Assembly: GCF_917627385.1 (NCBI RefSeq)
Contig: NZ_CAKJTL010000182.1
Coordinates: 1-40,101 of the forward strand
Direction: 5' to 3'
From: Protofrankia sp. CiT1
GTDB taxonomy: Bacteria > Actinomycetota > Actinomycetes > Frankiales > Frankiaceae
DNA length: 40,101 nucleotides
In this document: piece by piece, positions 7,267 to 17,800 of the stretch
How positions within the stretch are numbered: position 1 is the first letter of the stretch
Layout of the letters: every line of letters begins with the position of its first letter
Notes under the pieces: generated by a model
What the model was told of the DNA's origin: nothing
Database searches by the model: none
The model's input: only the letters and a program-made list of their open reading frames with translations
Position numbers and translations under genes: made by a program

Positions 7267-9111
7267 TCATCGGGCTTGCCCGGATGTTCTTGAGCCCTCG
7301 GCGCGGTGCGCGGGGATCAGCCCGGCTCCGGTGTCCGCCAAGCGCCCGCCTACCTCCTCCGCCGCGCCGAGCCTGGATTTCGTCCCGCCGGCAGACCCGG
7401 CGATGAAGGATGCGAGCAGGGCGATCAACAGCATTACGATGGAGAACGCAAAGGTAGCGGCAAGACCATCGGAGAACGGCCCGGAGATCAGATTCGGAAA
7501 AAAGGCGCGGCCGGTTACGTAAGCGCCCGAGTCAGGTAGAGCCGACAGCGTCTGCGGCCCGAGAAGCTGCTCCATCGGATTGTATCCGAGAAAGGCTGAG
7601 AATAGAACGCCGATCGGCGGGAGCGTGGAAACAGTCCGCGCAACCGGCACTGGCACACCTTGGTCCACAAGCCCGTTGAACATGGTTGACGGCAGGCTAC
7701 GCGAAAGCCCGATGACTATCAGTGTGAAGGAAAACCCGATCGAAAGCACGAAAGCGGCGTTCTGGAAGGTGGCGGCCATGCCCGCGCCAACGCCTCGGGT
7801 GTTCGCCGGCAATCCGTTCATCACGTCAGCCCGGTTCGGTGAAGAGAACAGACCGGTGCCCAGGCCATTGATGAGCAGAATCAGCGCGAATATCGGATAG
7901 GGGAAGTTCACCGGGATTACCATGAACAACACAAAGCTCACGATGACGATGGCCAGGCCTGCCATCGTGAACATCCGGGCACCGAAGCGGTCGGACAGCA
8001 CGCCGGCAAGCGGTGCGGCCACCAGAAACCCGACCGTCAACGGAATCAGGTAAATTCCTGCCCATAGCGGAGTCTCCGCGAAACCGTAGCCATGCTGCGG
8101 CAGCCAGATTCCCTGTAGCCAGATGAGAAGGACGAACTGGAGACCGCCGCGGCCGAGTGACGCCAGCAGGTTCGCGACATTGCCAGCGGAGAACGACCGG
8201 ATCCGGAACAGTTCCAGATTGAACAGCGGTTCGGCCACCTTAGACTCGATGACCGCGAAGGCGGCCAGCAGGAGTACGCCGCCGATCACCGCAGCCAGCA
8301 CCCACGGGTTGGTCCAGCCCATAGTGCGCCCACCATAGGGCTGTATGCCATAAGTGATGCCGACGAGCAGCGCGATCAACCCGCCAGCGAACGTCATGTT
8401 TCCCCACCAGTCCATCGCTGTACGACGCCGCACACCGTTGTCCCGGAGTTTCGCATAGGCCCAGAAGGTACCGAATACTCCAAACGGTACCGACACCAGG
8501 AAGACATAGTGCCAGTTGATCGGGGCGAGTAGCCCGCCCAGCAGTAGACCGAGAAAGGTGCCGGCGATGCCGGCGACCACATTGATACCCAATGCTAACC
8601 CGCGCTGACGGGTGGGAAAGGCATCAGTGAGAATAGCCGTGGAATTTGCGACGAGAAACGCCCCGCCCACGCCCTGTATGATCCGCCAGCCGATCAGCCA
8701 GAGAGCAGCCGTGGTGCCGTGCATCCAGGTAGCGGCCAGCAGAATCGAAGAAGCGGCGAAGATCGCAAATCCGAGATTGTACATACGGACGCGACCGTAC
8801 ATGTCCCCAAGCCGGCCAAATGTCACCACCAGCACGGCCGTGACGACGAGGAAGCCCATCATCATCCACAACAGATAGCTGATGTTGCCAGGGCTCAACG
8901 GGTTGATGTCGATCCCGTGGAAGATGTCCGGCAGCGCGATCAGAACGATCGACGCATTGATCGTTGCCATCAGCATGCCGAGCGTGGTGTTGGACAGGGC
9001 GATCCATTTGTAATGCGGACCCAACGTAATCGGGCGATTATCCATTGCCGATGGTCGAATAGTCCGCATATTGTCCGAAATTTGCTGGTCCATGCAGCCC
9101 GAGTCCCGCAC
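7267..9111 (-). CDS. DHA2-type MFS drug/metabolite exporter (14 TM)
   Basis: This is a large major-facilitator protein with about fourteen hydrophobic segments, as in the EmrB/QacA (DHA2) family of proton antiporters. TM1 is MLMATINASIVLIALPDI, and the loop VVTFGRLGDMYGRVRMYNLG is the motif-A loop between TM2 and TM3. WRIIQGVGGAFLVANS and GINVVAGIAGTFLGLLLGGLL correspond to motifs B and C of exporters. I choose the GTG at 9111 because GGAGGG lies about seven bases before it, giving 614 residues; a GTG at 9144 and an ATG at 9093 are alternatives. The C-terminal tail after the last helix is about 45 residues and hydrophilic. A 25-bp operator-like palindrome lies 40 bp upstream. No local repressor gene is adjacent. 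Confidence 0.9.
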   Translation of the reverse strand: MRDSGCMDQQISDNMRTIRPSAMDNRPITLGPHYKWIALSNTTLGMLMATINASIVLIALPDIFHGIDINPLSPGNISYLLWMMMGFLVVTAVLVVTFGRLGDMYGRVRMYNLGFAIFAASSILLAATWMHGTTAALWLIGWRIIQGVGGAFLVANSTAILTDAFPTRQRGLALGINVVAGIAGTFLGLLLGGLLAPINWHYVFLVSVPFGVFGTFWAYAKLRDNGVRRRTAMDWWGNMTFAGGLIALLVGITYGIQPYGGRTMGWTNPWVLAAVIGGVLLLAAFAVIESKVAEPLFNLELFRIRSFSAGNVANLLASLGRGGLQFVLLIWLQGIWLPQHGYGFAETPLWAGIYLIPLTVGFLVAAPLAGVLSDRFGARMFTMAGLAIVIVSFVLFMVIPVNFPYPIFALILLINGLGTGLFSSPNRADVMNGLPANTRGVGAGMAATFQNAAFVLSIGFSFTLIVIGLSRSLPSTMFNGLVDQGVPVPVARTVSTLPPIGVLFSAFLGYNPMEQLLGPQTLSALPDSGAYVTGRAFFPNLISGPFSDGLAATFAFSIVMLLIALLASFIAGSAGGTKSRLGAAEEVGGRLADTGAGLIPAHRAEGSRTSGQAR

Positions 9112-12604: not shown

Positions 12605-13239
12605 GTACACAACCAACGAACGAGGAAACGCTGTTGACCACGATGCGACCACCATTGGAACGCTACGTGTGCCGCGGCCGCAACCGGAACCGGAAGCGGC
12701 TGCCGGCCATCATCCACCGGCGGGCGAGGCCGAACGCCACGCCGGTACCGGATGAGTTGTACCGGTACGGCCAAGAAGGCGGCCAGGGGCTGCCTGGGCG
12801 TGGCGAGCCGGACAGACGGCTTCGGAAACACGCCCCGGAGAGCCTCCGGCGGCGCGGCCATACCGCAGCGCGCTGCCGGAGGCCTGTGCGCGAAGTGACA
12901 GCAGAACGGTCAAAAATCAACTACAAGACATATAAGGCACAACATTAACTAACAGTAGTAGACATGAGCACATCAACTATGCACCATCAGGGGCAATATG
13001 GACAACGGACACCCCATTCGGGGCCGATCTCAGGCGGGGACGAAGAAGCTGGCCCCGACCGCTAGACGCCCGCTGACAGGCATCCGCGGCAGGTCGCGCC
13101 ACCCGGCCCATCGCGGTCGCACCGCTGGAGCCAGGCCGAGGGCGGTCACCACAGCCTGCGGCGCGCCCACACCGGGAAACCGCCCCGCCGGGCCAGCCGC
13201 CGGCATCCGGCTGGCGGTAGGTCAACGATGGCGGAAGTT
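12605..13239. other. Gene-free region downstream of the GNAT-AAA gene
   Basis: No supported gene. Open frames on both strands are rich in Arg, Pro and Gly without recognisable motifs and look like GC-driven chance frames. An AT-rich patch at 12905-13000 contains CTAACAGTAGTAG (12949-12961), which resembles the dyad half CTAACAGTTACTAC at 5278-5291. The region contains the promoter of the SpoIIE-type phosphatase gene. Confidence 0.45.
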
Positions 13240-14517
13240 TCAGCTGCGGGTGAAGGCCCTGGCGTCCGAACGGAAGCGATCGAGTTCATCCGCGCTGATG
13301 GTCGGTCGCGATGAGCGCGCCGCCGCCAGAAGATCTTCGGTGGTCACCGGCAGGCGCTCACCCTTGTCGACCGCGCGGTGGAACGCGGCCGCCACGGCTC
13401 GCTGCACGGTGGATGCAAGATCAGCGGGTGTGAACAGCTCAGTGGCCGCGACAACCGGTTCGACGTCCACCTGCTTGTTGTCGATCCGCTCGAGGAAACG
13501 ATCGAGTAGAAGACGACGGCCGGGGGCGTCCGGTGGTCCCACCGGAAGGACAAGATCGAAGCGTCCGGGGCGGATGAACGCCGGGTCCAGCGCCGCGATC
13601 GAGTTCGTCGCACAGATCAACAGACGCCCTGGGGAACTACGGAACTGTGGAATGGCCTTCAGCAGCTCATTCACCACCGACTGGCTCTCCGGCCCGACGG
13701 CTTCCCGGGACTGCGCGATCTCGTCCACCTCATCGATGAACACCACGACTCGTTCGACCTGCATGAGTTCGGTGATGGCCGTACGCAGCTCGGCCGCGAG
13801 GTTGCCACCGCTGCCGGCCGCGACCAGCCGGGATGGCAGAAGTTCCACGAACGGCCACTCCAGACGTGCCGCTACCGCCCGCGCGAATGACGTCTTCCCG
13901 GTACCCGGTGGTCCGAACAGAAGCATGGTCGTCGGTGTGACCACCCCATACGTCTCCGCCAGCTCGTTCTCCTTGATAGGCAGCAGCAGGCGCTGTTCCA
14001 CCAGTTGCTTGCCTTCGGCCATGCCGGCCAGACTGTGCCATTCCGCCGCTGTGAGCAGGGTGCCGCCCCAGCGCTCCACGGTCGTGACGTCGACCGGCCG
14101 CAGTGGCTCGTACTTCTCATAGAGTGTGAGCCCGGTCTTTACGAAGCCCCGGTTCCGGAAGGCGAGTTCCCCGAACTGCCCCGACGCGAGCAAGGTGGTT
14201 ATACGGCGATGACCAGCGTGAATCAGCTGGTTCTCCAACGCCTGCAGAAGCGCGGACCCGATACCTCGGTATCGCCACGCAGGCGAGATTGCCAGCGCAA
14301 GTACCCGGGCATAGCCTTGTTCGTATTTTCCGACCGCGACGCCGACGAACTGATCGGGTGTGACGGCGACGACAGCGGGAGTGTCCTCGCGCAGCGCGAG
14401 AACTGTGTCGGTCAGGTCAAAAGACGGCCCTTCTTCGTCAGATCTGACCTCCTCAAGCAGACGAACCGTAGCGGTGTGATCGGTGGTGTCGTAGGATCGC
14501 ACATGCCAATTGGTCAT
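13240..14517 (-). CDS. GNAT acetyltransferase fused to an AAA+ ATPase
   Basis: A single 425-residue frame carries two domains. Residues 1-140 are a GNAT N-acetyltransferase: VLALAISPAWRYRGIGSALLQALE (72-95) includes the RGIGSALL pyrophosphate-binding loop for acetyl-CoA, and FGELAFRNRGFVKTGLTLYEKY (115-136) is the C-terminal motif B. Residues about 160-425 are a classical AAA domain: Walker A GPPGTGKT (202-209), Walker B VVVFIDEVDE (257-266), sensor ICATN (301-305) and arginine-containing RPGRFD (316-321). A C-terminal helical lid ends in SADELDRFRSDARAF. The ATG at 14517 has a strong AAAGGAG six bases upstream. Both active sites look intact. The gene stands alone, with an iterated CACTCGTG motif in its promoter region. 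The substrate of either domain is unknown. A remodelling ATPase that presents or senses an acetylated small molecule or protein is possible, by inference. Confidence 0.9.
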   Translation of the reverse strand: MTNWHVRSYDTTDHTATVRLLEEVRSDEEGPSFDLTDTVLALREDTPAVVAVTPDQFVGVAVGKYEQGYARVLALAISPAWRYRGIGSALLQALENQLIHAGHRRITTLLASGQFGELAFRNRGFVKTGLTLYEKYEPLRPVDVTTVERWGGTLLTAAEWHSLAGMAEGKQLVEQRLLLPIKENELAETYGVVTPTTMLLFGPPGTGKTSFARAVAARLEWPFVELLPSRLVAAGSGGNLAAELRTAITELMQVERVVVFIDEVDEIAQSREAVGPESQSVVNELLKAIPQFRSSPGRLLICATNSIAALDPAFIRPGRFDLVLPVGPPDAPGRRLLLDRFLERIDNKQVDVEPVVAATELFTPADLASTVQRAVAAAFHRAVDKGERLPVTTEDLLAAARSSRPTISADELDRFRSDARAFTRS

Positions 14518-15174
14518 GACCGACTCCTTTCACTCGTGTCACTCGTGCGCAAGTACGGGTCAGTTACCTGTCGCGTCGTTTCCACTCGTGTTACCACTCG
14601 GGCAGCGGCAAGGAGCCCGCGGCGCAGGCTCGAAAGGAGCAGAATTAACCAGCCGGCGCGGGCTATCCATCCGCGGAGGGGAGCGGTAGATTGCCCGCGC
14701 CGGGGTCTCACCCGGGGTTCGCGACCGTTGTCAGCGACCACTCCGGGGAGCTTTTTTCGGCCACGCTGGCCTCAGCCACCGGCCAAAGAAGTCGGGCCCG
14801 TTACTCTTTTCACACCGTCGGGGGGCCGGGCCCGCTCAGACCACGGCGGCGGACGCCGCGGGTAACGTCCTGGGCTCCGTACCGCGGCTGCCCTGGCCGG
14901 CCCCCCGCATCGGGTGGAGACCCACGCGGTGTTATGCCCCGGCGATTTTCGGCCGGTTTTTCAGTGACCCCGGGGATGCGGCCAAGGTGGCACCAACCGA
15001 GAGTCGACCAGTTCGTTGCGGAAACAGTTGTCCCACGTCGGGCATATCGATCGAACATCTGACGGCACCATCGCGTCAGTGCGGTGAGGCCTCGGCGGAA
15101 CATTCCTCGAGGTGCCCTCCCCTGCCCTCGCGGACGGCCGACAGGCGTTGTCGGCGTCCCACGGAGTCCGATCA
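14518..15174. other. Promoter region with iterated CACTCGTG motif, otherwise gene-free
   Basis: Nothing in this stretch looks coding. Close to the GNAT-AAA start is the motif array given separately (14531-14600). The remainder is GC-rich with runs such as GGGGGGCC near 14820 and no clear dyad or tRNA-like structure. Confidence 0.45.
14531..14600. promoter_or_regulatory. Iterated CACTCGTG sites upstream of the GNAT-AAA gene
   Basis: The octamer CACTCGTG occurs at 14531-14538, 14540-14547 and 14583-14590, with a variant CACTCGGG at 14595-14602. The first two are nine bases apart start to start. It is a near-palindrome (CAC-TC-GTG). The first copy ends 13 bases before the ATG, so it also overlaps the ribosome site region. 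The same octamer occurs upstream of pfk. This suggests a protein-binding array, but the regulator is unknown. Confidence 0.4.
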
Positions 15175-15537
15175 TCAGACGGCGCCCTCGCGCGGGCGGG
15201 GGATCGTATGTTCCCGCTCAAGCGGAGCGGCCGACAGCAGGCTCCGGCCCGCTCGGGCGAGTTCGTCCGGTAGCCCGCTCAGCCCGAGCCTGTGCCCGGC
15301 CTCGGTGCGAATGACCATCAGATGGGCCAGCAGTGCTCGAGCTTCGTGAATCTCTCCTTCCGGCGCGCCATCCGCGATCAGCCGTGCGAGGGCAGTCATC
15401 ACATCGCTTTCCGAGGTCACAGCCTCGGCGTATTCGCGTGCGGCGATCCACAACCGAGCCGCGGCATGCTGCCAGTCCGCCATGGCGCAGGCCATCAACG
15501 CGGGCGAGGCGGTCCGCGGCAACGTCTGTGTGATCAC
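15175..15537 (-). CDS. Small helical protein translationally coupled to whiB
   Basis: This 120-residue protein starts at a GTG whose bases overlap the whiB TGA stop (GTGA, 4-nt overlap), a strong sign of a real, coupled gene. The sequence is alanine-rich and appears all-helical: MACAMADWQHAAARLWIAAREYAEAV, then SDVMTALARLIADGAPEGEIHEARALLAHLMVIRTEAGHRLGL. It has no cysteine cluster, signal peptide or DNA-binding motif that I can identify. I do not recognise the family. Stoichiometric co-production with a WhiB protein suggests it could be a partner, anti-factor or cofactor of that regulator, by inference. Confidence 0.7.
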   Translation of the reverse strand: MITQTLPRTASPALMACAMADWQHAAARLWIAAREYAEAVTSESDVMTALARLIADGAPEGEIHEARALLAHLMVIRTEAGHRLGLSGLPDELARAGRSLLSAAPLEREHTIPRPREGAV

Positions 15538-15914
15538 TGTGCTACCCGGGGAGCGGGGGCACTGACCAGCTGACGACGCAGTGCCCGTCGCTCATCCTCG
15601 TCCAGACCACCCCAGACACCGGCGTCCTGACCTGTGTCGAGCGCCCAGTTCAGACACTCACGGATCACCAGACAGCGGCGGCAGACGGCCTTGGCCTCCT
15701 CCAGCTGCCGCTGTGCTGGCCCGGTCGTACCGACCGGGAAGAACAGCTCCGGGTCCTCATCCCGGCAGGCGCTGCGCTGACGCCAGACTTCCAAATCCTC
15801 CGCGGTCTGCGGCTCCTGCGGCCGGACATGACGCCACATGTATGCGGTGTTCATGTCCTCAAACTGGCCGCGCAACTCGCCAGCCGCGTCCAATACAAGA
15901 ACTCTTCTGCTCAT
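15534..15914 (-). CDS. WhiB-family iron-sulfur transcriptional regulator
   Basis: From an ATG at 15914 this encodes 126 residues; the frame is open further upstream to 16127 but the added part is not WhiB-like. The four cluster-ligand cysteines are C50, C78, C81 and C87, giving the required C-Xn-CxxCxxxxxC arrangement (SACRDEDPELFFP ... AVCRRCLVIREC). The diagnostic turn AGVWGG is at 98-103, followed by a basic tail DERRALRRQL. WhiB proteins bind a [4Fe-4S] cluster, contact the principal sigma factor and regulate development, redox or antibiotic responses in Actinobacteria. It is the first gene of a two-gene unit, overlapping the 120-residue gene by four bases, and diverges from an XRE-TPR regulator. 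Confidence 0.9.
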   Translation of the reverse strand: MSRRVLVLDAAGELRGQFEDMNTAYMWRHVRPQEPQTAEDLEVWRQRSACRDEDPELFFPVGTTGPAQRQLEEAKAVCRRCLVIRECLNWALDTGQDAGVWGGLDEDERRALRRQLVSAPAPRVAQ

Positions 15915-16396
15915 CCGACACCGTCCCGTGGTCGCGTCGACATGAAGACTAAATCGAGCAGAAGCGTACGACCGGCCCCAGGGAGTGTCTACTCGCAATG
16001 TTTCAGAACCAGGGAACAGGGAATATGCCCCAGGACGGGGCCAAGGACTCATGAATAAAGGCTGAGGTACAACGTCCTGCCACCGACATTCGTCCAAGGC
16101 GCCGGGAATCATGCTTTTCAGCGACATCCGGGCGGCAGTTCACAGATCCACACGATCACCGTCCGGATACTCCGCGTGTGCCTGAGTCGCGAGCGCCCGG
16201 GGCCCGGCCAGGGTCACATACGGTGCCGACGAATACCGGCCGGGGCGTAATCCGGCGAGAATCAAGACGCCTCGCCGTGGACCGACCAGGAACAACGACT
16301 CACCACAGGTGACCTCGGGTCCTTAGACTCCGGAGGGGGGGTTGGCTACGTTCCGACTACATGCCTTGACATGACGGCCAAATGGGAGAAGGTCAG
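15915..16396. other. Divergent promoter region between whiB and the XRE-TPR regulator
   Basis: About 480 bp separate the two starts. The whiB-frame extension into this region (to 16127) is open but shows no recognisable domain. No strong palindrome was found. Control of both regulators from here is expected from the geometry. Confidence 0.5.
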
Positions 16397-17800
16397 ATGC
16401 CTCCTCGAAGGGTTACCATCGGTCCGTTGCAGCATGCACGCCAGATCCGCGGCCTGTCTCTGGCGCGGGCAGCGGAAGAGATCCGGAGTCTCGCCGAGGA
16501 CATCGGTAGACCATGGGATGCGTTGACCGCACAGCGCCTCTCGGAGTACGAGGGTGGCAAACGCCCGAGCTGGGAACACTGTGATCTACTATCCCGCTAT
16601 TACTGCACCAATGTCGTCGCGCTGGGCTGGGCGTGCGACTATGCCGGACCCGAGACCGGGACCCTGGCACTCATGTCGAATTCAGTTGACGATGGGGAGG
16701 CTCGATGGGCAGACGCCGATCTCGACCTTCTATGGAGACCTGACGGGTTGGCCGTCGGGTTCGAGGAGGTGACCGCCAATATGGAACGGCGGAAGTTTCT
16801 CAGCGTGTCCGGCGTGGCGCTGACCTCGGTTGCGCATCACTGGCTCATGACCGATTCAGCCGGCCTTGCCGCGGCGCTTGAGGGAAAGCGTGTGAACGAC
16901 TCGCTCGTCGCGGGCTTCGAGCGGCGGGTCGACACGCTTCGCAAAATGGATGACGTTCTCGGAGGGGATGACATATACGAGCTTTCCATGGCGGAGCTAC
17001 GGGTAGCCGTCCGCGTCCTGCGGACCGCCTTGTACGGCCACGCCCACGAGGCACGGCTGTACGCTGTCGCGGCTGAGCTGGCCCGCATCGCAGGCTGGGC
17101 AGCCTTCGACAGCGGCTACCACGGGGGTGCCCAGCGCCTGTGGATGGTCGCGCTCCGGGCCGCCGGCGAGGCCGGCCAGCCCGCGCTCGGCGCCAACATC
17201 CTGCGTTGCATGGCCGAACAGGCGGCCTGGTATGGCGACCCGAATGACGCCGTCACCATGCTCCGCTCAGCGCAGGCCGGAGCCCGCGCGGCAATGACCG
17301 CCACCGAGAAGGCGGCAATCTCCGGCGCGCTGGCTCTCGCGTACGGCCGTGCCGGTGAAAGCACCACAGCCGCCCGGACCGCCGAGGACGCGGTTCATCT
17401 CATCAGCCAGTCACAACCAGCGGAAGATCCGCCGCACATCTACTGGTGTGTCCCGTCCTGCATTTCGCTTTTCGCCGGTGAGGCGCTGCTCGCCAGCGGT
17501 GACGGAGCCGCGGCCATTCCGTATCTGGACAATGCCACGGACGGGTTGGCCGGTGATTTCCCACGCGCCCGGGTGGAAGCCATGACCAGGTTGGGTGTGG
17601 CGCACGTCCAGGCCGGCGATGCCGATGCCGCCATTCAGCTCGGGCATCAGGCCGTTGAACAGGCGGCTCTTCTCGATTCCGGAATGGCCGGACGAGACGT
17701 CGCGACACTCTGCCGTGAAATCGAACGTACCGGGTGCCCCGGGGCCGCCGATCTCACGGATCATGCCCGCGTCGCGCTGACCGCCGTCGGCGCGGCCTGA
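16397..17800 (+). CDS. XRE-type DNA-binding regulator with TPR sensor domain
   Basis: From the ATG at 16397, with GGGAGAAGG four bases upstream, this encodes 467 residues. Residues about 6-65 are a Cro/C1-type helix-turn-helix: LQHARQIRGLSLARAAEEIRSL, then ALTAQRLSEYEGGKRPSWEH, with a long recognition insert as in actinobacterial members. A linker with MERRKFLSVSGVALTSVAHHW is common in this group. The C-terminal 300 residues are helical repeats of TPR type (YAVAAELARIAGWAAFDSG, AAISGALALAYGRAGESTTA, MTRLGVAHVQAGDADAAIQL). Family members control differentiation or secondary metabolism and sense a peptide or protein through the TPR. A strong terminator follows 70 bp downstream. Confidence 0.88.
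   Translation: MPPRRVTIGPLQHARQIRGLSLARAAEEIRSLAEDIGRPWDALTAQRLSEYEGGKRPSWEHCDLLSRYYCTNVVALGWACDYAGPETGTLALMSNSVDDGEARWADADLDLLWRPDGLAVGFEEVTANMERRKFLSVSGVALTSVAHHWLMTDSAGLAAALEGKRVNDSLVAGFERRVDTLRKMDDVLGGDDIYELSMAELRVAVRVLRTALYGHAHEARLYAVAAELARIAGWAAFDSGYHGGAQRLWMVALRAAGEAGQPALGANILRCMAEQAAWYGDPNDAVTMLRSAQAGARAAMTATEKAAISGALALAYGRAGESTTAARTAEDAVHLISQSQPAEDPPHIYWCVPSCISLFAGEALLASGDGAAAIPYLDNATDGLAGDFPRARVEAMTRLGVAHVQAGDADAAIQLGHQAVEQAALLDSGMAGRDVATLCREIERTGCPGAADLTDHARVALTAVGAA

Follow-up and report, generated by a model that had tools for sequence, protein, structure and literature searches.

The window, by which we mean the whole 40,101-nucleotide stretch of Protofrankia sp. CiT1 DNA that was analysed, carries at 13240-14517 on its minus strand a single ATG-started frame of 425 amino acids in which a GNAT domain is followed by an AAA module (Table 1). 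The original prediction that the two domains share one uninterrupted frame holds exactly as it was made, and each motif that it named (the acetyl-CoA loop, Walker A, Walker B, the sensor and RPGRFD) was found in the window protein. The frame is likewise uninterrupted in all related copies examined but two: L135 (genome G053), where the match is divided between two frames, and the second copy in L282 (G561, 7615-8942), which is frame-shifted between its GNAT and AAA parts and accompanies an intact first copy. The open frame in related copies, together with dN/dS values between Protofrankia species of 0.05-0.09 for the GNAT half and 0.04-0.06 for the AAA half (plain pairwise counts with no test of significance, as are all dN/dS values given here), indicates that 13240-14517 is coding along its entire length and excludes a chance frame. 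To judge from these comparisons, purifying selection in Protofrankia is as strong on the one half as on the other. An overlapping plus-strand ORF of 374 amino acids (12998-14122) is without comparable support; it resembles a shadow frame of GC-rich DNA. The AlphaFold2 model of the whole protein (mean pLDDT 86.7) shows a GNAT fold and then an AAA module, with a pTM of 0.65 at which the placement of the one relative to the other is not trustworthy.

Table 1. The fusion gene, its domains and motifs, and the adjoining upstream stretch (window positions; residues are those of the 425-residue protein)
Feature	Residues	Position	Strand	Basis
GNAT-AAA fusion gene		13240..14517	-	frame, Pfam, homologues, residue conservation, dN/dS
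GNAT-fold N-domain	1-138	14104..14517	-	Pfam; AlphaFold2 model; structure matches
Acetyl-CoA pyrophosphate loop RYRGIGSALL	82-91	14245..14274	-	R82/G85/G87 conservation
Classical AAA module with lid and C-terminal helix	150-425	13243..14070	-	Pfam; VIA
Walker A GPPGTGKT	202-209	13891..13914	-	G202-K208 invariant, T209 nearly so (50 members)
Pore loop 1 region, no aromatic residue	230-240	13798..13830	-	alignment; same-genome comparison
Walker B FIDE	260-263	13729..13740	-	F260, D262, E263 invariant (50 members)
Arginine-finger pair RPGRFD	316-321	13555..13572	-	R316, R319 invariant (50 members)
Upstream stretch with CACGAGTG repeats		14518..14606	-	partly conserved, four Protofrankia species

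The C-terminal half matches the Pfam AAA family (PF00004) at residues 198-326 with an E value of 4.9e-29 (101.9 bits against a cut-off of 21.2), and comparison by VIA gives Z scores of 24.6-26.4 over about 256-311 residues to FIGL-1, Vps4, spastin and p97. The Vps4_C oligomerisation helix (PF09336) reaches 20.8 bits in the window protein against a cut-off of 21.3, no peptidase family was found in the Pfam scan of that protein, and the chain stops after the lid helices. Residues invariant in the 50 aligned members of the family include F201-K208, F260, D262, E263, R271, N305 (the sensor 1 asparagine), R316 and R319-D321, besides other AAA residues; Walker A, Walker B, the sensor 1 asparagine and the arginine pair of the second region of homology, the marks of a classical AAA protein, are thus all present. 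Invariance of both trans-acting arginine fingers implies that the protein would assemble into a ring, which the same two residues suggest is a hexamer.

The earlier assignment of this module to a Cdc48/FtsH-like remodelling type is supported as regards its classical AAA type and, to judge from the pore, not supported in the form given. The aromatic-hydrophobic-glycine paddle of pore loop 1 occurs in none of the 50 members, in which the loop varies in length and carries RLAAG-like sequences; the corresponding loops in the same genome read EMFVGVG in FtsH, NKYVGET in the ARC/Mpa-like protein and DMYVGES in the Cdc48-like protein. Threading unfoldases grip their substrates with aromatic pore loops, the D1 ring of eukaryotic Cdc48 being an exception (PMC7226402).

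In the N-terminal half, Pfam Acetyltransf_1 matches residues 36-109 of the window protein above its cut-off (E 1.2e-8). Structure searches with the whole-protein model gave little information on this half, which was therefore modelled separately (AlphaFold2, mean pLDDT 87.5), and the best PDB matches of that model are GNATs throughout. Foldseek retrieved YpeA (2pdo, E 1.8e-9), and VIA gave Z scores of 14-16 to NatC, Ard1, RimI and others (123-136 residues, 2.1-3.6 Å); several of the best fold matches are protein N-terminal acetyltransferases. Among aligned members outside one degenerate clade, R82 of the acetyl-CoA loop is kept in 41/44, G85 in 43/44 and G87 in 42/44. The fold and the loop, which together mark the GNAT superfamily, are found in the window protein and in nearly all other non-degenerate members, and the GNAT half of these proteins probably binds acetyl-CoA. 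The sole invariant residue within the domain in the 50 aligned members is A51. Residue 120 is Leu, Phe or Met in 50/50 members, and the usual tyrosine general acid of GNATs is absent. The domain had been predicted to be apparently intact, which is accurate for the loop in most lineages and inaccurate for this tyrosine. Because the common general acid is missing, GNAT catalysis in the fusion family is uncertain, although the loss is compatible with catalysis: the tyrosine is present in 62% of characterised GNATs and is not universal, many GNATs being active without it (PMC4964394). Several other GNAT matches in the window genome, judged by eye, likewise lack it.

The fusion was found in 29 of 396 genomes sampled across Actinomycetota and in 56 of 393 from the class to which the window belongs. 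Among 58 relatives searched, it is full-length in 5/5 Protofrankia (the four other genomes at 91-93% identity) and in 13/13 genomes of a second genus, Frankia according to named records, and absent from the other sampled genera of the family. A further 23 plasmid records, all actinobacterial, carry it in Rhodococcus, Streptomyces, Embleya, Kitasatospora, Saccharopolyspora, Arthrobacter, Paenarthrobacter and Tsukamurella; beyond Actinomycetota, the search extended to plasmids and phages and to a single genome scan by pattern. The expectation of a recurrent, conserved fusion, rather than one peculiar to a single genome, was thus borne out across the phylum and on plasmids. A sequencing join of two genes, which would have undone the prediction, was not what the homologues revealed, and with a chance reading frame this artefact is a negligible explanation that gathered no support: the same architecture is repeated in dozens of independent genomes, some of them single-contig chromosomes, and in complete plasmids.

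The two halves were not found apart in these samples. A query with the AAA half against the 396 genomes recovered the set already obtained with the full-length protein, after which E values dropped from 1e-67 to 1e-38, the one exception being a fragmentary second copy in G265 (L188); the GNAT-half query returned fused copies only. The one candidate AAA-only member, the second copy of G561, is really the frame-broken full-length gene described above. An acIV assembly (L031:5998-10620) has two copies with equal match scores, separated by 3.4 kb and preceded in each case by the same short-chain dehydrogenase; they may represent either a tandem duplication or an assembly repeat. In a tree of AAA halves with TPR-AAA and tandem AAA proteins as outgroups, all members form one clade (100/100) on a stem of 1.18 changes per site, and the simplest reading would be that the fusion arose once, long ago, and was then inherited vertically, with losses and some transfer by plasmids. 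A phage or viral origin was considered and rejected, as matches there are confined to the AAA part (24-35% identity).

The degenerate clade comprises six aligned actinomycetotal members (L120-L124 and L134), which belong to a nine-genome group missed by the GNAT-half query of the phylum sample, and it is nested inside the fusion family in the AAA-half tree (100/100). R82, G85 and G87 are each kept in 0/6 of these members, and W81, S88, A119, the aromatic residue at 133 and the basic residue at 64 have been lost alongside. Loss of the acetyl-CoA-binding residues across homologues, named beforehand as a result that would count against a functional fusion, was therefore seen in one nested clade, while most lineages keep the loop. 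The ATPase motifs are retained in this clade, where dN/dS is 0.25-0.48 for the GNAT half versus 0.07-0.11 for the AAA half, and on these values the GNAT half appears to be under relaxed constraint while the ATPase remains strictly constrained. Relaxation of the GNAT half only, together with loss of the loop, suggests that the ATPase function outlives acetyl-CoA binding, and the contrast with Protofrankia suggests that acetyl-CoA binding matters in the lineage of the window. The AAA half of the degenerate clade has changes of its own as well, so that the function of the protein may have changed there.

Gaps of about 0.6 kb separate the fusion gene from the nearest plausible gene on both sides in the window, and the gene appears to be monocistronic and to stand alone. 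An all-against-all comparison of neighbours in 21 member clusters, with genes found by a simple home-made procedure that may miss small ones, gave no consistently placed gene and thus no conserved operon partner. The fusion protein had been foreseen as a stand-alone machine, and its stand-alone character is supported. Neighbours in Protofrankia (phosphofructokinase, a SpoIIE-type phosphatase, WhiB and an NsdA-family regulator) are not retained in Frankia, and same-strand neighbours within single clades, such as a TM_HPP protein in a freshwater clade and a flavoprotein in Frankia, differ between clades. Short-chain dehydrogenases and ABC transporters are the only repeated neighbours, but were rejected as partners as members of common families whose positions and strands vary. 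In the window, the interval 15175-17800 beside the fusion gene holds a WhiB-type factor (15534-16127, minus strand) and an NsdA-family TPR regulator (16382-17800, plus strand), which are kept in some or all of the Protofrankia compared. In Kitasatospora sp. NBC_00039 (L095:10001-17354), the fusion gene lies tail to tail with a [NiFe]-hydrogenase maturation (hyp) operon, an adjacency unique among the annotated contexts read, and the operon was set aside as a partner.

The fusion ATG is preceded by a ribosome-binding-like AAAGGAG, and several copies of CACGAGTG or near variants lie at 14531-14606, just before the start codon. An adjacent pair, ACGAGTGACACGAGTG, made up of two copies of the repeat, is shared by four Protofrankia species, and genome-wide it occurs a single time; the repeats are possible candidate binding sites for a regulator. 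Upstream searches for heat-shock and SOS boxes (HAIR, CIRCE, LexA and DosR patterns) gave just one half-site at one locus.

The reading that we favour, while holding it tentatively, is that the AAA ring is the output of the protein and that the GNAT N-domain acetylates a client or holds it in an acetyl-CoA-dependent manner. The protein would be a single-ring AAA ATPase with the GNAT fold as its N-terminal recruitment domain, probably a hexamer bearing six GNAT N-domains in the manner of the N-domains of p97. In lineages that bind acetyl-CoA, the GNAT domain would bind a protein client and either acetylate it or hold it dependent on acetyl-CoA, whereupon the ATPase ring may dislodge or remodel the client; its action would be limited and non-processive, in place of threading by aromatic pore loops. 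The ATPase would be the essential output and the GNAT domain an input or modifying domain. This proposal draws support from the AAA motifs invariant in 50 members, from halves that were not found apart in the genomes sampled and make up a monophyletic family with a loop-less clade nested inside it, from the GNAT-only relaxation in that clade, from the N-terminal acetyltransferases among the best GNAT fold matches and from a pore loop 1 that has no aromatic residue. It is weakened by the missing tyrosine general acid and by the 21 clusters, which offered no substrate, partner or conserved neighbour pointing to a client. The pore loop bears on it in another way as well, since a ring without the aromatic residue is less likely than FtsH or ARC to remodel polypeptides and could instead be a switch.

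The reading ranked next, which we consider rather improbable, is that the GNAT domain binds acetyl-CoA without catalysing and that its occupancy turns the ATPase ring on or off, coupling carbon and energy status to an AAA machine. A loop conserved while the general acid is missing throughout would suit a sensor, as would the clade that dropped the loop and kept the ATPase, and MtPatA provides a precedent for GNATs with regulatory ligand domains (PMC4964394); yet many GNATs are active without the tyrosine (PMC4964394), several other GNAT matches of the window genome, judged by eye, lack it too, and a sensor has no obvious need for the conserved aromatic residue at 133 and R/K64, both lost along with the loop. 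Unlikely, and placed below the sensor, is an arrangement in which the GNAT domain is the output enzyme and the AAA ring does no more than oligomerise or gate it. Domains that are always joined in the genomes sampled, a GNAT half strongly constrained in most lineages and a ring without an aromatic pore loop could all be explained in this way, and TmcA/NAT10 likewise has its ATPase and its GNAT on a single chain; but the GNAT half of the degenerate clade decays while the AAA half is still strongly constrained, which is not expected of an accessory module and disfavours the AAA half as a mere scaffold. A role in defence, whether as an anti-phage ATPase like IetA (IteA) or as some other component, is highly improbable. 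IetA is the best PADLOC model (E 1.2e-30) and the distribution is patchy with plasmid copies, but the NCBIfam IteA score of 90.5 against a cut-off of 510 bits amounts to generic AAA similarity, none of the seven window neighbours scanned, where an IetS protease would adjoin, gave a PADLOC match, and no partner gene recurs in the 21 clusters.

The most far-reaching reading is offered with still more reserve than the favoured one: an AAA ring into which acetyltransferase heads are built might acetylate a client or read acetyl-CoA and remodel the client through a paddle-less pore, one natural lineage having the modifying part switched off. To our knowledge, AAA rings fused to a protein-modifying domain are rare. 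The present fusion is old, occurs widely across Actinomycetota and has no described function; NCBI names its plasmid members 'bifunctional GNAT family N-acetyltransferase/ATP-binding protein', and no study of it was found in open-access full text by searches aimed in part at the fusion itself, so that the family is, to the extent of the open-access literature, already named in annotation yet never characterised. It would link an ATP-driven machine to protein acetylation or to acetyl-CoA sensing. As a compact system amenable to genetics, it would allow a test of whether an AAA machine can be gated by acetylation or by the level of acetyl-CoA, with the clade that has no CoA loop as a natural control. 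The absent pore-loop aromatic raises the question of how such a ring acts on its client.

With Cdc48/p97 (D1/D2), Vps4, FIGL-1 and spastin, the family shares the AAA fold, lid and C-terminal helix, Walker A and B, sensor 1 and the arginine-finger pair, but it differs from classical AAA proteins in having a GNAT domain as its N-domain, and from Cdc48 in having one AAA module instead of two. FtsH has a C-terminal zinc metalloprotease domain that is absent from the window protein. YpeA, RimI, Ard1/NatC and the polyamine acetyltransferases share the fold and the R-x-x-G-x-G acetyl-CoA loop, whereas the members described here are fused to AAA, carry Leu, Phe or Met in place of Tyr at 120 and have lost the loop in one clade. 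The RNA cytidine acetyltransferases TmcA/NAT10/Kre33 resemble the fusion in combining an ATPase and a GNAT within a single chain, but their ATPase is of the RNA-helicase type and not AAA, and the window protein gave no Pfam match to TmcA-type helicase or tRNA-binding parts. As regards its pore, the family is like the D1 ring of eukaryotic Cdc48, which has lost the aromatic residue too (PMC7226402). MtPatA, in which a GNAT is joined to a cAMP-binding domain (PMC4964394), and other multi-domain protein acetyltransferases are similar in pairing a GNAT with a second ligand-binding domain, which binds cAMP there and is an ATPase here.
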